Of a DNA stretch of 54,245 nucleotides, positions 4,566 through 51,639 are shown piece after piece. The translations under genes were made by a program, and so were the position numbers. The first letter of the stretch is position 1, and each line of letters opens with the position of its first letter. The notes beneath the pieces are model-generated. The model was not told the origin of the DNA, did no database searches, and saw nothing but the letters and a program-made list of their open reading frames with translations. The stretch is from contig MWDJ01000020.1 of NCBI GenBank assembly GCA_002070505.1, forward strand, positions 1-54,245. Direction: 5' to 3'. This stretch comes from Bacteroidetes bacterium ADurb.Bin145 (GTDB lineage: Bacteria; Bacteroidota; Bacteroidia; Bacteroidales; VadinHA17).

Positions 4566-4573
4566 CAAAGATA
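4566..4573 (-). promoter_or_regulatory. -7 box TATCTTTG for ileS
   Basis: Exact TAnnTTTG match on the minus strand, 41 bases upstream of the chosen ileS start. This supports 4525 over the longer frame, because the box would otherwise lie inside the coding region. The -33 region is occupied by the TTCAAC-type array instead of TTTG. Confidence 0.5.
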
Positions 4574-4579
4574 ATAAAA

Positions 4580-4636
4580 GTTGGAGAATTGGAGAGGGTT
4601 GAAGAGTTGAAAAGGGTTGAAGAGTTGAAGAGGGGG
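4580..4636. repeat. GTTGAA octamer-type array upstream of ileS
   Basis: A run of GTTGAA cores about 8-10 bases apart, grading into GTTGGA at the ileS-proximal side. Read in the direction of ileS transcription the core is TTCAAC. The same core in the same sense orientation precedes the sirtuin gene and dnaG. Confidence 0.75.
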
Positions 4637-4664
4637 TGAGGAGGCGAGGAGCAACGCGACGAAG

Positions 4665-4728
4665 TTCCGCACGGCGGAAGGGTGGTGAGGTGACGAGGAA
4701 CGTCGTGACGAAGTTCCGCACCGCGGAA
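4665..4728. repeat. Two copies of the palindrome TTCCGC-N3-GCGGAA
   Basis: Perfect 6-bp inverted repeats with a 3-base loop at 4665-4679 and 4714-4728, each preceded by GACGAAG. A third copy is at 5017-5031, preceded by GACGAG. They lie in the 600-base gene-free spacer 4526-5125. A frame reading through this spacer on the minus strand is a by-product of the repeats. Confidence 0.65.
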
Positions 4729-4767
4729 AGGGACGACCAGGCGAAAAGGTGATGAGGAGACCTGATG

Positions 4768-4918
4768 AAAATTCGTCGTAGACGATGCGGTATTGTAGTG
4801 AAGATGGTACCTTTTATAAGTTTTTACCTCGTAGAGGTTATAGAAAAATTCGTCGTAGACGATATGGTATTGTAGTTGAAGATGGTACCCTTTATATGTT
4901 TTTACCTCGCAGAGGTTG
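4768..4918. repeat. Tandem duplication of a 77-base unit with internal palindromes
   Basis: Two adjacent copies, 4768-4844 and 4845-4918, differ at only a few positions. Each unit contains a near-palindrome around CGTCGTAGACG, the sequence GGTACC, and a second palindrome of the type ACCTC-G-y-r-GAGGT near its end. The unit could fold as RNA. No start codon or coding bias was seen, so it is treated as a non-coding repeat of unknown role. Confidence 0.7.
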
Positions 4919-4960
4919 AAAAGTTGAAAACGTTGAAGCGTTGAAGAGGGTTGAAGAGGG
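4914..4960. repeat. Second GTTGAA array in the ileS upstream spacer
   Basis: Five GTTGAA cores at 8-11 base intervals in the same orientation as the array at 4580-4636. The array abuts the second copy of the 77-base unit. Confidence 0.7.
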
Positions 4961-5016
4961 AGCGAAAGGGTGTGGGGGAGACTTGACCTGCACGACCCGA
5001 GGAGCTTTGCGACGAG

Positions 5017-5031
5017 TTCCGCGCAGCGGAA
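5017..5031. repeat. Third TTCCGC-N3-GCGGAA palindrome
   Basis: Same 6-bp stem and 3-base loop as the pair at 4665-4728, separated from them by the 77-base tandem units. Confidence 0.6.
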
Positions 5032-5125
5032 TGCAAGACTATGAGACTCTGAGACTCCAGGACTATCAGACTGTACCCGCCCGGGATTAAAACAAAAATC
5101 ACTACTTTTATCGCTGGATCCGCCG

Positions 5126-5536
5126 ATGAATAAAAACCTTCTGACACTGATATTCAGCCTGTTGTACTTTAATTTTCTTGGTGCACAGGTGCCTGACAGT
5201 GCTAAATACATTTCACTGGATCCTTATTATTTCCATCTGCAATATCTGAAAGAAGACAGTGCCCTGCTTATCGACGTCAGACAGCCTTTTGAATTCCGTG
5301 CAAACAGGATCAAAGATGCAATCAATTTGCCTTCTCCAAAAAATCTTAAAGCTCTTATCGATACCTTAGGCAGTAATTATGCACTATTCCTCTATTGTAC
5401 AAGTGATTACAGAAGCAGGCAGGCTTGTGAGGTCTGCTACGACCTCGGAGCCCGGAAGGTTTATAATCTTGAAGGAGGTATTGTAGCGTGGAGGAAAGAA
5501 GGATTTCCTGTTGAAAGAAGAAGAAAGAAGAAATAG
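5126..5536 (+). CDS. Secreted single-domain rhodanese-like protein
   Basis: 136 residues. Residues 1-20 (MNKNLLTLIFSLLYFNFLGA, ending in GAQ) form a Sec signal peptide, so the product is periplasmic. The rest is one rhodanese domain: LIDVRQPFEF, INLPSP, then the active-site loop YCTSDYRSR, in which the cysteine would carry the persulfide, and GGIVAWRKEGFPVE at the end. Such exported rhodaneses move sulfane sulfur or bind oxyanions; the substrate cannot be read from sequence. It sits between the repeat-rich ileS spacer and ribE and is not obviously part of an operon with either, since a hairpin cluster and a new -7 box separate it from ribE. Confidence 0.88.
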   Translation: MNKNLLTLIFSLLYFNFLGAQVPDSAKYISLDPYYFHLQYLKEDSALLIDVRQPFEFRANRIKDAINLPSPKNLKALIDTLGSNYALFLYCTSDYRSRQACEVCYDLGARKVYNLEGGIVAWRKEGFPVERRRKKK

Positions 5537-5550
5537 TCATGCAGGTTGAG

Positions 5551-5600
5551 TATCCGCCGCTTGGCGGATACGAAATCCCGAGAGCGGAGCGAATCGGGAT
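5551..5600. repeat. Two consecutive hairpins after the rhodanese gene
   Basis: TATCCGCC-GCTT-GGCGGATA (5551-5570) is a perfect 8-bp stem with a tetraloop. It is followed by ATCCCG (5575-5580) pairing with CGGGAT (5595-5600). No T-run follows, so these look more like an intergenic palindromic repeat than a classic intrinsic terminator, although they sit where a terminator would. Confidence 0.55.
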
Positions 5601-5630
5601 CGTTCTAGTAGCTCCAATCAGTAATTTCAT

Positions 5631-5638
5631 TACATTTG
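5631..5638 (+). promoter_or_regulatory. -7 box TACATTTG for ribE
   Basis: Exact TAnnTTTG match 25 bases upstream of the ribE start. No clear -33 TTTG. No FMN riboswitch is visible in the short leader. Confidence 0.5.
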
Positions 5639-5663
5639 AATTGTAACAAAAAATAAGAATTAT

Positions 5664-6263
5664 ATGTTTTCAGGAATAGTAGAAGAGGCTGCTCCGGTTG
5701 TAAAACTGGAAAAAGAAAAAGACAATCTTCACATCACAATGAAATGTTCATTTACAAAAGAGCTGAAAATTGATCAGAGTATTTCACATAATGGCGTCTG
5801 CCTTACTGTTGTAAAAAAATATAAGGATACCTATACTGTAACCGCCATAAAGGAAACTCTTGAGAAAACAAACCTTGGATTACTGAAACCCGGAGATAAG
5901 GTCAACCTTGAGCGCAGCACACGTCTGGATGGCCGGCTCGACGGGCATATGGTGCAGGGACATATCGATCAGACAGCAGTATGCACAGAGGTCACAGAAG
6001 CCGGAGGCAGCTGGTACTATACTTTTGAATATAAGCCTCTTAAAGATGATTATATCACAGTCGAAAAAGGTTCTGTCTCTGTCAACGGTGTAAGCCTTAC
6101 AGTGGTCAATTCAAAACCCACATCTTTCCAGGTAGCAATAATACCTTTCACTTATGAGGTTACAAATTTTCACCAGATAAAGAAAGGTACTGTTGTTAAT
6201 ATCGAGTTCGATATACTGGGAAAATATATAGCGAAAATAGTTAAACAGCAGCTGGGGAAATGA
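5664..6263 (+). CDS. ribE: Riboflavin synthase alpha chain
   Basis: 199 residues, the usual length. The enzyme dismutates two 6,7-dimethyl-8-ribityllumazine molecules to riboflavin. It opens with the family hallmark MFSGIVEE and contains two lumazine-binding repeats, each with an NGV-x-LTVV strand (NGVCLTVV in the first half, NGVSLTVV in the second). The junction motif GHMVQGHID is present between the halves. The C-terminal trimerisation helix (FDILGKYIAKIV) is intact. The gene has its own -7 box and converges with yhbP-ubiX; a 24-bp perfect inverted repeat lies between them. Confidence 0.96.
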   Translation: MFSGIVEEAAPVVKLEKEKDNLHITMKCSFTKELKIDQSISHNGVCLTVVKKYKDTYTVTAIKETLEKTNLGLLKPGDKVNLERSTRLDGRLDGHMVQGHIDQTAVCTEVTEAGGSWYYTFEYKPLKDDYITVEKGSVSVNGVSLTVVNSKPTSFQVAIIPFTYEVTNFHQIKKGTVVNIEFDILGKYIAKIVKQQLGK

Positions 6264-6300
6264 CCTCTCATACTCCGGAAGTTACCCCCCTACTACCCTA

Positions 6301-6433
6301 AACTACCCTCTATACAAATCTTTCTCTTATTCTCTGCCGAAAGGAGGAGATCCCTCACTCGTCAATCCTTTGCAAGCTCAGGATTGACTCGATCGGGATG
6401 ACACGGTCTCCTGGGGAAAAGGGGGAATGAGGC
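6301..6433. repeat. Dispersed intergenic repeat, copy A
   Basis: This stretch resembles 26323-26540. Shared blocks include TCTTATTCTCTG, GAGGAGATCCCTCACT, the hairpin GTCAATCCT...AGGATTGAC, GATTGACTCG, ATGACACGG and GGGGGAATGAGG. Copy A is shorter; copy B has an extra ~85 bases between the two hairpin segments. It belongs to the broad class of intergenic palindromic repeats and is non-coding. Confidence 0.65.
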
Positions 6434-6499
6434 GGGGCGTTTTGATACAATTCTTTTCTTGTAGCAGCCTTCTGGCAAAACGCCCCGCCTCATTCCCCC
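6421..6499. repeat. 24-bp perfect inverted repeat between convergent ribE and yhbP
   Basis: The left arm 6421-6444 (GGGGGAATGAGG then CGGGGCGTTTTG) is the exact reverse complement of the right arm 6476-6499, with a 31-base loop. The structure could act as a bidirectional terminator, but its arm length and GC content exceed what termination needs. The left arm begins with the same GGGGGAATGAGG block that ends repeat copy B at 26540. Confidence 0.75.
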
Positions 6500-6515
6500 T
6501 ACTACGCTCAAAAAC

Positions 6516-6575
6516 ACCGTGTCATTCCGTGTAAACCTCCGTGTAAACCTCCGTGAGACTCCGTGTCCTCCGTGG
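6516..6575. repeat. Inverted copy of the CACGGAG repeat cluster
   Basis: Several CCGTG/CTCCGTG units, the reverse complement of the CACGGAG cluster at 495. The unit CCACGGAGG abuts the yhbP stop codon. Confidence 0.55.
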
Positions 6576-7022
6576 TTAATCTATTATTTGTCCATGAACT
6601 GCAGGTTCACCCCAAAATAGTTTTTTCCCGAAACCAAGCCTGTTATCGGTGTACTTGATATGCGTAAGCCTGACGATCCAGAGATGTGTCTCCATAAGCA
6701 TGGCAACCGGGAATCTTCTTAAATATGCTTTACGGGCGAGAGACACCAGGTTGCCTTCAGGTTCTGATACTATCCCCTCAAACTGTATACCCCTGATCTT
6801 CCCTATGATCTTTGTTTCGAGCACCACGGCACCCGATACATTCCGGTTCCTGATGAATTCCTGTCCATGACGTGTCTTGAGATCTGTTGTGAAAACCAGA
6901 GCATTCTCACTTTCAATATAAACATAAAAACAGCTTGCACACCAGGGTTTCCCTTCACTGGAAGTTGCTATAGTGAGTACATGATGTTTCCTGAAGAATC
7001 TGACTATCCGGCTGTCAATCAT
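6576..7022 (-). CDS. YhbP/UPF0306-type flavin-fold (split-barrel) protein
   Basis: 148 residues from the ATG at 7022; the frame extends to 7082, but that part lies inside ubiX. The pattern is very close to E. coli YhbP: WCASCFYVY, KTRHGQEF, IRGIQFEGIV, LARKAYLRRFPVA, and IKYTDNRLGFGKKLFW. The family has the PNPOx-like FMN-binding split-barrel fold; its reaction is not established. The start codon overlaps the ubiX stop by 8 bases (7015-7022), so the two genes are translationally coupled, suggesting a shared flavin-related task with UbiX. The pyridoxamine oxidase label would be too specific. Confidence 0.85.
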   Translation of the reverse strand: MIDSRIVRFFRKHHVLTIATSSEGKPWCASCFYVYIESENALVFTTDLKTRHGQEFIRNRNVSGAVVLETKIIGKIRGIQFEGIVSEPEGNLVSLARKAYLRRFPVAMLMETHLWIVRLTHIKYTDNRLGFGKKLFWGEPAVHGQIID

Positions 7023-7587
7023 TTTCCATCCATCGGTAAGTTTCTGATTCAAACCCGGCAAGATCCAGGATCCGTTCCACAACAGTCATAACGAGCTCAT
7101 CAATAGTCTTCGGTTTGCTGTAGAATGAAGGTGATGCCGGACATATTATTGCTCCAGCCAGGGTAAGCTTTTCCATATTCTGAATATGAATAAGATTGTA
7201 TGGCGTCTCACGCGGGACAAGGATCAGCTTCCTCCTCTCCTTCAGCATCACATCTGCAGCTCTCGTGATGAGGTCTTCCGACGTGCCGTTTGCGATCCTG
7301 CCTATAACTCCCATTGAAGCCGGACAAATTATCATTGTATCAAAAGTTGATGAACCTGATGCGAATGGTGCAAAAAAAGATCTGTTATCATACTCCTTCG
7401 CAGGCTTGCGTAATGAGTATTTCCCCCCGGTCTCGTACTTCCATATTTCTTTTGCATTATCGGAAAAAATTACAGCTATTTCTTCCGGTAAAATTTTGAG
7501 ATCAAGCAGTTTATCCAGGAGTTTCTTCGCATAAACTGAGCCGCTCGCCCCGGTTATTGCTACTATTATTTTCCTGTTTCGATTCAT
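7015..7587 (-). CDS. ubiX: Flavin prenyltransferase UbiX
   Basis: 190 residues, full length. UbiX joins dimethylallyl phosphate to FMN to give prenylated FMN, the cofactor of UbiD-type decarboxylases. The N-terminal flavin-binding GASGSVYAKKLL, the SxGxIA-type region (PASMGVIGRIANG) and the signature LVPRETP with nearby IICPASPSFY are all present. It is the first gene of a two-gene unit with yhbP. No ubiD homologue is in the window, so its client enzyme must be encoded elsewhere or remains to be found. Confidence 0.94.
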   Translation of the reverse strand: MNRNRKIIVAITGASGSVYAKKLLDKLLDLKILPEEIAVIFSDNAKEIWKYETGGKYSLRKPAKEYDNRSFFAPFASGSSTFDTMIICPASMGVIGRIANGTSEDLITRAADVMLKERRKLILVPRETPYNLIHIQNMEKLTLAGAIICPASPSFYSKPKTIDELVMTVVERILDLAGFESETYRWMEND

Positions 7588-7646
7588 CCTTTTTTTTATG
7601 GTGTAAAGGTAGTAATTTGGATCACCTCAATCCTTTGCTTTCTTGT

Positions 7647-8351
7647 TTACTGTTCTCTCTCCTGCCCTTTCCCGAGCAGTCTTTCCGTCAGTATTTTCAC
7701 ACCATCGGAAGCTCTGGCTTTTATGACTTCCACCTTCCTGTAGCCGGGTAAATAAACATCATTGGGATCAATCAGCCATAATGAAGCAGCAGCGGGAGCA
7801 AACTCAATCAGTCCGGCAGCAGGATATACGTTCAGTGACGATCCGATAACAACAAAGATATCTGCTGTCTGTGTTATCCTCACTGCTTCGTCCATCATAG
7901 GCACTGCCTCTCCGAACCAAACAATATGTGGTCTGAGCTGGCTTCCTTTTTCACAAAGGTCTCCCTCTCTTATATCACCATACCCAATATCATATACCAG
8001 GAACGGATCTTCAGTGCTCCTTGCTTTTGTAAGTTCTCCGTGAAGATGCAGTACTTTCGAGCTTCCTGCTCTCTCGTGAAGATTATCGATATTCTGTGTT
8101 ATAACTTCGACGTCAAAATGTTTCTCCAGGGCTGCAACACCCTGGTGCCCCGCATTAGGCTGACATTTTTCAAGCTGCCTGCGACGCTCATTGTAGAATC
8201 TCAGCACAAGCTCCCTGTTCCTCATCCACCCTTCCGGCGATGCCACCTCGGTAACGTCATACTCTTCCCATAATCCTCCCGCCTCCCTGAAAGTACGGAT
8301 ACCGCTTTCGGCACTCATGCCCGCGCCGGTCAGAAATATGAGTCTTTTCAT
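7647..8351 (-). CDS. cobB: Sirtuin class III, NAD-dependent protein deacylase
   Basis: 234 residues. NAD-binding GAGMSAESGI (9-18), TQNIDNLHERAGS (85-97) and the catalytic His104 (LHLHGE) are intact. Tyr53 and Arg56 in the FYNERR segment match the YxxR pair that selects succinyl/malonyl-lysine in class III sirtuins such as E. coli CobB. The small zinc-binding module has only one cysteine (DLCEKGSQLRPHIVWFGE), so the four-cysteine zinc site is lost while the fold anchor RPHIVWFGE is kept. A TTCAAC-type array precedes it, with a near-consensus TACATTTA box at 8369-8376. Confidence 0.93.
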   Translation of the reverse strand: MKRLIFLTGAGMSAESGIRTFREAGGLWEEYDVTEVASPEGWMRNRELVLRFYNERRRQLEKCQPNAGHQGVAALEKHFDVEVITQNIDNLHERAGSSKVLHLHGELTKARSTEDPFLVYDIGYGDIREGDLCEKGSQLRPHIVWFGEAVPMMDEAVRITQTADIFVVIGSSLNVYPAAGLIEFAPAAASLWLIDPNDVYLPGYRKVEVIKARASDGVKILTERLLGKGQEREQ

Positions 8352-8368
8352 TGGTAATAATTAAAATA

Positions 8369-8376
8369 TAAATGTA
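8369..8376 (-). promoter_or_regulatory. Near-consensus -7 box TACATTTA for the sirtuin gene
   Basis: One mismatch to TAnnTTTG on the minus strand, 17 bases upstream of the start and 8 bases downstream of the TTCAAC-type array (in transcript sense). Confidence 0.35.
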
Positions 8377-8384
8377 GGAAAAAA

Positions 8385-8430
8385 GGTTGAAGAGTTGAAA
8401 GGTTGAAGAAGTTGAAGGGTTGAAAGGAGG
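8385..8430. repeat. GTTGAA array upstream of the sirtuin gene
   Basis: Five GTTGAA cores at 8-9 base intervals. In the sense of the sirtuin gene this is a TTCAAC array, the same orientation as at ileS and dnaG. It also forms the left inverted flank of the four-helix-bundle gene. Confidence 0.75.
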
Positions 8431-8436
8431 AGTTAG

Positions 8437-8799
8437 TTAATCTGATTTCATTGATTTGGTTAAATTAATCAATATCATAGATATTATATGAATTCCTGAT
8501 CTCATTTCTGATAATTCATTATTATCAATATATTTAAGATCATTAGCTAAAATCAACTGGTTCATGGTTTCCATAAGACTGGAAAAAGCAACGTTATAAA
8601 AATGAACCTTTTCCTTTTTTGACCAGCGGGAAGAACCTTCTGCAATATTAGAGCAAACAGAAATTACGGCTCTTCTTAGCTGTGGGATTAATCCGAATCT
8701 CTCAGTTTCAGGAAATTCCTGAGTTAAGAGATATGTTTTTTTCGATAGGAGCCTGGATTTTGGCCAAACTTCAAGCTTTTCAAAATTGAAAGTATACAT
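8437..8799 (-). CDS. Four helix bundle protein (S23/IVP family)
   Basis: 120 residues matching the family first seen as 23S rRNA intervening-sequence proteins: FEKLEVWPKSRLL, FPETERFGLIPQLRRA, SNIAEGSSRWSKKE and then helical segments to the end. Members form pentameric four-helix bundles; one branch is the Avd protein of diversity-generating retroelements, but no reverse transcriptase or template repeat is present here. The role is unknown. It stands alone, flanked by oppositely oriented GTTGAA (8385-8430) and TTCAAC (8905-9050) arrays, so gene plus arrays form an inverted-repeat cassette. Confidence 0.9.
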   Translation of the reverse strand: MYTFNFEKLEVWPKSRLLSKKTYLLTQEFPETERFGLIPQLRRAVISVCSNIAEGSSRWSKKEKVHFYNVAFSSLMETMNQLILANDLKYIDNNELSEMRSGIHIISMILINLTKSMKSD

Positions 8800-8904
8800 A
8801 ATCTAGATAATTTGAGGTTAACAGCGATAATCTAAAGGTAAAATTTTTTCCTCTGAAAATCTTATCTTAATACGGATATTTTAATTGTCCCCCTTTTCGT
8901 CCCT

Positions 8905-9050
8905 CTTCAACCGTTCAACCCTTCAACGTTTCAACCTCTTCAACACTTCAACGTTTCAACACTTCAACCCTCTTCAACGCTTCAACACTTCTTCAACTTT
9001 TTCAACCCTTCAACCCTTCAACTTTTCAACCCTCTTCAACTTTTCAACGT
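8905..9050. repeat. TTCAAC octamer array upstream of dnaG
   Basis: About 17 TTCAAC cores, mostly every 8-9 bases with variable two- or three-base linkers, covering 146 bases. The last core ends 11 bases before the TATCTTTG box of dnaG. Unlike a CRISPR there are no spacers, and unlike a perfect VNTR the linkers vary. Confidence 0.85.
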
Positions 9051-9059
9051 TTTTCTGAA

Positions 9060-9067
9060 TATCTTTG
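9060..9067 (+). promoter_or_regulatory. -7 box TATCTTTG directly before dnaG
   Basis: Exact TAnnTTTG match ending 4 bases before the dnaG ATG at 9072. If used, transcription would start at or within a few bases of the ATG, giving a leaderless or nearly leaderless mRNA. The identical octamer serves ileS. Confidence 0.45.
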
Positions 9068-25567: not shown

Positions 25568-25630
25568 TTAATTGTTAATTATTAATTGTTAATTGCTAAT
25601 TGTTAATTGTTAATTGTTAATCGCTAATTA
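25568..25630. repeat. Nine-copy heptamer tandem repeat (TTAATTG) before blaI
   Basis: Nine consecutive 7-base units (TTAATTG with single variants TTAATTA, CTAATTG, TTAATCG, CTAATTA) fill the gap between the stop codon of the upstream lipoprotein gene and the blaI start; the stop codon itself lies in a partial tenth unit. Register is exact over 63 bases. Confidence 0.9.
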
Positions 25631-26092
25631 TTAATGTACCCTTTCCCATATTTCTTCAATTTTATATCCCTCAACGAGGTTTCCCGTAAGGAACAGAAGG
25701 TCTCCTTCAATTTTAATATTATATGCTGGTTTGCTCCCCAGATAAGAATCCATTCCCAGACCGAAATCGATAGACTCTGTATACGTATCATTATTTAAGG
25801 TATATGATCCTCCGGCTGATGAGTTTATCTTTTTCGTCAATTTAGAATAATGAACCCATAAAAAATGAGTGTCTGTTATCATTTTAATATACTCCATGTC
25901 TTGTGGCAAAGATGAAAACGTTTTGGAAGTACCGTATTTAAACATTTTCATTTGCCAGGTACCGGTGATTGATTTATTAATCGTTCCGGGAGCTTTTTCA
26001 ATCCTGCTTACTGAACAGTCTGTAAGCAGGGCAACTGTCATTATGGACAAGAAAACGATCGATAAGAGTCCTTTTTTCATATTTTCTTTCAT
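25631..26092 (-). CDS. Lipocalin-like exported protein, first gene of the blaI operon
   Basis: 153 residues; a second in-frame ATG four codons in (26080) could be the true start. A hydrophobic export signal is followed by LLTDC, lipobox-like but with an atypical Asp before the cysteine. The mature part reads as a small lipocalin/DUF4488-type beta barrel: ITGTWQMKMFKYG, YIKMITDTHFLWV, GGSYTLNNDTYTE, and EGYKIEEIWERV at the end. No enzymatic residues are evident. It is the gene closest to the BlaI-operator promoter and is co-directional with blaI and blaR1, so it is probably the main output of this sensor circuit. Confidence 0.75.
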   Translation of the reverse strand: MKENMKKGLLSIVFLSIMTVALLTDCSVSRIEKAPGTINKSITGTWQMKMFKYGTSKTFSSLPQDMEYIKMITDTHFLWVHYSKLTKKINSSAGGSYTLNNDTYTESIDFGLGMDSYLGSKPAYNIKIEGDLLFLTGNLVEGYKIEEIWERVH

Positions 26093-51542: not shown

Positions 51543-51634
51543 GGTTGCAGGTTGCAGGTTGCAGGTTGCAAGTCCGCAGGATGGGTTTTGTTAAAGAGAA
51601 GACACCTTGCACCATGCACCGTGCACCTTGCACC
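51543..51634. repeat. Two heptamer arrays beside tRNA-Ile2
   Basis: Four exact copies of GGTTGCA (51543-51570), then, 36 bases on, four copies of NTGCACC (51607-51634), ending 5 bases before the tRNA. The heptamer period matches that of the TTAATTG tract before blaI. Confidence 0.75.
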
Positions 51635-51639
51635 AAAAA

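Follow-up and report, generated by a model that had tools for sequence, protein, structure and literature searches.

Inverted arrays of short words around intervening-sequence protein genes point to an overlooked type of insertion, the size of a gene, where two genes meet

Background

A gene lying between inverted ends, together with filled and empty sites, characterizes transposons with terminal inverted repeats (TIR) and miniature inverted-repeat transposable elements (MITEs), while the short tandemly repeated repetitive sequences (STRR) of Cyanobacteria are intergenic arrays of short words. Among the closest described systems is the intervening sequence (IVS) of the Coxiella 23S rRNA gene, whose terminal inverted repeats form a stem cut by RNase III in vitro, and in which heptamer tandem repeats precede the open reading frame (ORF) of S23, a protein of the intervening-sequence protein (IVP) family that has no known function according to the portion of the paper drawn on here (PMC4990558). 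The present analysis concerns contig MWDJ01000020.1 of Bacteroidetes bacterium ADurb.Bin145 (genome G000), the whole 54,245 nt of which are hereafter called the window, and in which an IVP gene located between cobB and dnaG is flanked by inverted arrays of the hexamer TTCAAC. Inverted arrays around IVP genes suggest that a type of insertion as large as a gene, sited at the junctions of genes, has been overlooked, and IVP genes bracketed by tandem-word arrays are not described in the titles and abstract starts of the open-licence PMC literature, among the matches listed.

An IVP gene between two arrays of the same word

A previous sequence-only reading of the window had reported TTCAAC arrays at the promoters of ileS, cobB (the sirtuin gene) and dnaG, but had overlooked the ORF that separates the cobB array from the dnaG array. 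The arrays are indeed found at these three genes and lie far above chance, the pattern TTCAACNNTTCAAC having 18 matches in the window versus 0.02 expected (100 shuffles). The overlooked ORF (8437-8799, minus strand) encodes a 120-amino-acid four-helix-bundle "23S rRNA intervening-sequence protein" (PF05635, E 4.6e-33; TIGR02436, E 5.7e-30). When this gene is read in its own direction, an array of 17 perfect GTTGAA units (8906-9048, plus strand) precedes it and five TTCAAC units (8386-8424, minus strand) follow it, and the two arrays are thus inverted flanks of one gene. The first, or 5' arm, ends 11 bp before the -7 box of dnaG (TATCTTTG, 9060-9067, plus strand), and the second, or 3' arm, lies between the IVP gene and cobB, which has a -7-like box that is off consensus (TACATTTA, 8369-8376, minus strand). 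The IVP gene is the sole gene called between the arms, and in the predicted fold 37 of 46 nt of the 5' arm are paired with the 3' arm, a value given with no shuffled control. At Rfam gathering cut-offs the window contains two tRNAs and nothing else, and the element sits between cobB and dnaG, not in a 23S rRNA gene.

The gap between cobB and dnaG measures 720 bp in the window, versus about 175, 61, 127 and 180 bp in G013, G027, G455 and G029, the only four of 29 relatives in which cobB is divergent to dnaG (their gap sizes being taken from tblastn ends). In these four genomes, the 1500 bp upstream of dnaG yielded no IVP. Since the IVP gene lies between the arrays, and since the gaps of these relatives are short and IVP-free, the gene and both arrays look like one insertion.

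PF05635 is said to resemble Avd, the accessory protein of diversity-generating retroelements, in the portion of PMC10053308 drawn on here. The window protein falls short of the Avd model, with 22.2 bits against a cut-off of 80. No phage homologue of the IVP was found at E 1e-5.

We consider it fairly probable that a single inserted element has the cobB array as one arm and the dnaG array as the other, and that this element is related to the 23S rRNA IVS, but intergenic, with arms that form an RNA stem. The sequences show the anatomy of such elements: each consists of a G-rich word array, an IVP gene and a complementary C-rich array, sits at a gene junction, mostly in sense with both neighbours, and carries a short word of its own, repeated in tandem and inverted across the two sides. 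In the transcript, the arms may pair into a stem enclosing the IVP frame, as in the 23S rRNA IVS; by analogy with the latter, we infer that the intergenic elements act like it at the RNA level. Such a stem would conceal the C-rich arm while permitting excision by an RNase III-like enzyme, and it is proposed that the host transcript survives for this reason. With words in tandem, many registers of pairing would be open to the arms, and template switching from one arm to the other could prevent their words from diverging.

Locus-specific words around other IVP genes

None of the other eight IVP loci of G000 has a TTCAAC array. Inspection of eight loci (L081 was left out) gave six clear inverted word pairs and one weak pair (GGTCATT/AATGAC, at L078), and no inverted pair is visible by eye at L076, where the IVP gene is interrupted. 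The word differs from one locus of this genome to another: GTTGAA/TTCAAC in the window, and CAATTA/TAATTG, GGCAGGGG/CCCCTGCC, AGTCT/AGACT, GGTTGCA/TGCACC and GATTGGAT/AATCATCC elsewhere. Six of the nine G000 IVPs exceed the 99th percentile of flank complementarity between mismatched IVP pairs.

The sample was extended to G000 and its relatives (29 loci and 20 regions hand-picked for spread), using a model of seven G000 proteins that was later widened in three rounds at E 1e-4, and that may include borderline ORFs. It gave 61 ORFs, three of which had no usable flanks. When the 5' and 3' flanks of the remaining 58 are compared with mismatched IVP pairs, 21 lie above the 99th percentile and 32 above the 95th. 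A complementarity score of at least 24 is reached by 24/58 IVPs versus 3/215 small control genes, and versus 3/70 of the controls gapped on both sides; with the last 45 nt of the ORF included in the 3' window, the corresponding counts are 23/58 IVPs and 4/214 controls above threshold. The aligned 5' arm is the G-rich one in 30 of 32 cases (p 2.5e-7), the 3' arm being C-rich. In 25 of the 26 best loci the arms are paired in the predicted fold (by 8 nt only in one of them), L455 being unpaired. As to the neighbouring genes, five of the 58 IVPs were left out for want of a neighbour, and of the 42 codirectional IVP genes 39 share the direction of both neighbours and three oppose both, compared with 16/23 and seven, respectively, for gapped controls (p 0.026).

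Could such flanks be neutral tandem repeats? Slippage would make arrays in gaps, selection would remove only the orientations that disturb transcripts, and IVP genes would merely lie in such gaps. Many different words do occur in the gaps of G000, and the gap downstream of a Gfo/Idh-type gene (L272-L301; 21 of 30 located) holds A-rich words that vary by species (GTTGAA, TTTGAAAA, AGTTTAA). Slippage alone, however, gives neither inverted flanks of the same word at one gene family, at the frequencies given above for IVPs and gapped controls, nor the 30/32 polarity of the arms, and it sits poorly with TTCAAC arrays in which spacers vary between perfect hexamers while unit length is genome-specific (none of the 5000 permutations described below). 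We regard the neutral explanation as unlikely, and return to the inserted element.

Two further observations concern these words. At 51543-51635 of the window, a GGTTGCA array is followed by a TGCACC/CACCATG array, the inverted pair lying beside a tRNA with no IVP hit; GGTTGCA also brackets the IVP of L079. In L220 (1-6700, from G029), stretches of GTTGAA and TTCAAC alternate like a ladder around three IVP-like ORF hits.

Filled and empty sites in cyanobacterial plasmids

Relatives of the IVP occur in 21 plasmid records, mostly of Nostocales, 16 of which were fetched and 14 scored, L483 and L486 carrying no gene annotation. Five of the 14 plasmid IVPs have strong inverted brackets, with scores of 27-36 against a mismatched maximum of 25, and at L475 the 3' arm extends into the last codons of the IVP ORF. 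The repeats flanking the Pseudanabaena IVP have the same orientation and are not inverted.

An operon stretch is common to two Nostoc plasmids, its flanking genes being 90.5-99.7% identical. In ATCC 53789, an IVP element occupies one junction and 3 bp the other, and the reverse is found in C052, where the stop and start codons at the empty junction overlap; the two plasmids therefore offer reciprocal filled and empty sites. Both insertions lie between stop and start codons, and their arm words differ. Elsewhere among the plasmids, the IVP genes of L473, L474 and L484 lie between clustered regularly interspaced short palindromic repeat (CRISPR) genes (cas10 and a Cmr3-family gene; cas6 and cas4).

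More generally, the free-standing IVP genes of Bacteroidota and Cyanobacteria may be mobile elements with locus-specific, complementary tandem-word ends, which insert precisely at gene-gene junctions in sense, are tolerated via an RNA stem, and have left much of the short-word repeat found between genes in both phyla as their footprint, a generalization that we put forward tentatively and would not yet bet on. The tie between IVPs and arrays gives the protein a testable identity, as a mobility factor or an RNA-stem factor, and suggests a possible origin for the short intergenic repeats of Cyanobacteria and Bacteroidota.

Arrays without an IVP gene

Arrays lacking an IVP gene, such as those near ileS, may be remnants or relatives of the element. 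The array upstream of ileS (4580-4634 as spanned by TRF, minus strand) is 3.8 kb from the nearest IVP gene and lies upstream of a -7 box identical to that of dnaG (TATCTTTG, 4566-4573, minus strand). A second one (4914-4960, located here at 4915-4955; minus strand), in the gap between ileS and a rhodanese gene, had been read as a fourth array in the ileS sense: its orientation is as reported, but it lies 390 bp from ileS and nearer to the rhodanese start (171 bp), to which it presents the GTTGAA sense. It is abutted by 1.9 copies of a 78-bp repeat (4768-4917, plus strand) that contains two palindromes, of the TCGTCTACGACGA and CCTCTACGAGG types, and that is seen by eye beside TTCAAC arrays in the window and at L062, L070 and L073.

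When three perfect hexamers with spacers of 1-4 nt were required, 23 of the 35 further genomes in the genus had TTCAAC arrays, as did 4 of 24 from other families of the order; for the class, with G000 counted in, the figure is 49 of 395, and many of the places listed there are uniform tandem repeats. The reversed control pattern is rare, yet present (10 matches in G004, for example), and, since the search demands perfect hexamers, the conservation of the core is itself biased. Unit length is genome-specific, being mostly 8 in G000 and G027, 9 in G009 and G033, and 10 in G023, and the share of its variance that lies between genomes was reached by none of 5000 label permutations. The spacers are poor in G (15/164 bases in G000, 1/181 in G033 and 2/153 in G009).

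Orientation was scored in regions around most arrays, among the matches listed, of 20 genomes (for G009 and G027, a part of their arrays at this stage), with genes called by a codon-score script of our own rather than a standard tool, some starts being approximate. From 135 arrays, 12 inside called genes and 11 at edges were left out, and 112 have two called neighbours. In codirectional gaps, TTCAAC-sense and GTTGAA-sense arrays number 28 and 36, an absence of overall sense bias that contradicts the expectation of a genome-wide sense orientation towards the downstream gene. The two classes differ in where they lie. A TAnnTTTG box stands between array and downstream start in 14/28 TTCAAC-sense versus 2/36 GTTGAA-sense cases (p 7e-5); 27/36 GTTGAA-sense and 7/28 TTCAAC-sense arrays are within 20 bp of the upstream stop; and 11/36 GTTGAA-sense but 0/28 TTCAAC-sense arrays are less than 30 bp from the start. 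In convergent gaps TTCAAC points at the nearest stop in 12/13 cases, and in divergent gaps arrays show no bias (towards the nearer gene in 19/35). Keeping one array per homologous group (n=68) gave the same directions with weaker p values (6/7 for the convergent test, p 0.125). Predictions fixed beforehand were then confronted with 29 held-out arrays (four at edges and two inside genes being left out), mostly from G009 and G027, which are also in the first set, with two regions and six short loci contributed by other genomes; the box test gave 4/7 TTCAAC-sense versus 0/9 GTTGAA-sense (p 0.019).

We read the TTCAAC-sense arrays upstream of boxes as excluded from transcripts or as marking transcript boundaries, and not as a spaced promoter element. 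Where no IVP gene is present, the GTTGAA sense would persist inside transcripts and the TTCAAC sense outside them; the probable reason is that RNA rich in C and poor in G, when unpaired, offers Rho a place to load. The rule fits an avoidance of exposed RNA of this kind inside transcripts. In uncultured Bacteroidales it would also allow the boundaries of transcripts to be marked from sequence only. A general compositional skew of gaps was considered and rejected, promoter and non-promoter gaps free of the hexamers not differing in C versus G (p 0.53). With other words, 23 clusters in 454 kb of G000 include none in a codirectional gap with a box. A TTAATTG array of 9.7 copies (25568-25635 of the window), in a codirectional gap, is complementary to the word that flanks the IVP gene of L074.

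Another explanation, which we hold to be rather doubtful, gives Rho the leading part: arrays would be kept as loading sites that stop transcripts from entering genes, in sense upstream of promoters and antisense at 3' ends. TTCAAC-sense RNA is C-rich and nearly G-free, with YC steps every 8-10 nt and few G in the spacers, and Rho itself is present in the genome as an open frame of 632 amino acids. Rho utilization (rut) sites are C-rich and G-poor in the portion of PMC9160355 drawn on here, where a YC spacing of 9-13 is used, compared with array units of mostly 8-10, and the base content of the arrays fits a Rho site; in Bacillus subtilis, about 80% of Rut sites are antisense, with U/C-rich anchors, in the corresponding portion of PMC12350095. 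The tracking of promoters by orientation (14/28 versus 2/36, replicated on held-out arrays) and the aim of 12/13 convergent arrays at the nearest stop also speak for such insulators. On the other side, many arrays are just about 22-30 nt long, an exact hexamer should be unnecessary, most dnaG orthologues have no array, intrinsic terminators are not depleted, and the locus-specific words around IVP genes are left unexplained by Rho.

Promoters with and without arrays

The arrays at ileS, cobB and dnaG had been taken to share one polarity, and TTCAAC does lie on the coding strand of all three genes, upstream of their -7 boxes. The ileS/rhodanese and IVP/dnaG gaps are nevertheless divergent, and any array in them is in sense with one neighbour; cobB alone thus tests polarity, and the three arrays are not independent evidence of it.

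Are the arrays parts of promoters, either bound by an activator or substituting for the -33 box, with copy number tuning expression? They end near the -7 boxes of these three genes, and 32 of 63 start-pointing arrays are separated from that start by a TAnnTTTG box, versus 3.4 expected from shuffles. In yedF orthologues (L242-L271, 24 of 30 starts located), the number of TTCAAC hexamers within 150 bp of the start varies from 0 to 8, a variation that would suit such tuning. The last unit at yedF promoters is often 8-11 bp from the -7 box. A promoter element of fixed spacing was rejected, since array-to-box distances range from 10 to 488 bp and TTCAAC has no fixed position. The replacement of the -33 TTTG by arrays holds for the three window genes but is not general, TTTG at -23 being about equally rare with arrays (4/27) and without (10/79) among 109 promoters from the fetched loci. 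The other orientation is found in 36 of 64 codirectional arrays.

The dnaG promoter provides a direct comparison. Counted by eye, 25 of the 30 dnaG loci of the genus, with this one among the 30, have TAnnTTT(G/A) 4 nt ahead of the start (19/30 have TAnnTTTG), and the -7 box is present without an array in 24 of 29 relatives; among the 30 loci, two of which have less than 400 bp of upstream sequence, an array occurs upstream of dnaG in this genome only. Stray hexamers within 300 bp upstream were seen in G006 (one TTCAAC), G028 (one GTTGAA) and G024 (two GTTGAA). As most relatives keep the box without the array, the latter is not needed for the promoter. We therefore consider a promoter element quite improbable, and the data do not establish the arrays as promoter parts. 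Taken together, the interpretation given by the sequence-only reading is partly supported: of the two roles it had proposed, polarised insertion agrees with cobB and dnaG arrays that bracket an inserted IVP gene and with an orientation that follows transcription architecture, while the promoter-linked role is not supported.

Strength of the insertion reading

Several results weigh against an inserted element with stem-forming arms, and against the orientation rule attached to it. The stem gives no account of why the G-rich arm is the 5' one. Most IVPs do not reach the score threshold (34/58 below 24, and 9/14 plasmid IVPs at 17 or less), the 5' side has no clear tandem word in L453, L455 and L425, and the folded loci were selected for complementarity, with no shuffles folded, so that arm pairing is expected there. 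Tightly packed control genes are in sense with both neighbours in 43/50 cases and against in seven (p 0.34 versus IVPs), which leaves the sense bias of IVPs clear only against gapped genes. Only 9 of the 135 TTCAAC arrays, belonging to three regions, have IVP-like coding nearby, and at E 1e-3 none appears outside the window, L220 and L226; as no IVP remnant was found at the other arrays, the idea of remnants is not proven. When G000 is taken by itself, 9/18 arrays point towards the nearest gene edge. Among held-out arrays, one of the seven TTCAAC-sense arrays lies 17 bp from a start and broke a prediction, only 3/9 GTTGAA-sense arrays are within 20 bp of a stop, and the convergent (2/3) and divergent (1/4) outcomes were counted against the rule. 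The idea that arrays stand in place of intrinsic terminators was rejected, terminator-like hairpins not being depleted (4/25 TTCAAC-sense gaps versus 1/30 array-free box gaps). Finally, where dnaG relatives of at least 65% identity have named records, these are metagenome-assembled genomes.

Comparison with known systems

Like the 23S rRNA IVS of Coxiella and Leptospira, the window element encodes a protein of the S23/IVP family between complementary ends, and as in Coxiella, where they are heptamers, tandem repeats precede the ORF (PMC4990558, in the portion drawn on here). Unlike that IVS, it lies between protein genes, its arms are arrays of short words that vary with the locus, and its cutting is a prediction. 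A TIR transposon or MITE would require an identical terminal inverted repeat in all copies and was rejected, since within a single genome the words change from locus to locus. Some plasmid IVPs of Cyanobacteria have arms that resemble STRR, and we know of no account of STRR as arms of IVP elements. The TAACTGA heptamer arrays of Beggiatoaceae, Cyanobacteria and some Bacteroidetes are likewise intergenic direct repeats with a preferred orientation and many sites per genome; they consist of contiguous heptamers, forward and mostly close to start codons, and their description, in the portion drawn on here, makes no mention of an IVP (PMC4679880). In contrast, the arrays considered here have a TTCAAC core with spacers of mostly 2-4 nt, and lie upstream of -7 boxes or after stops.

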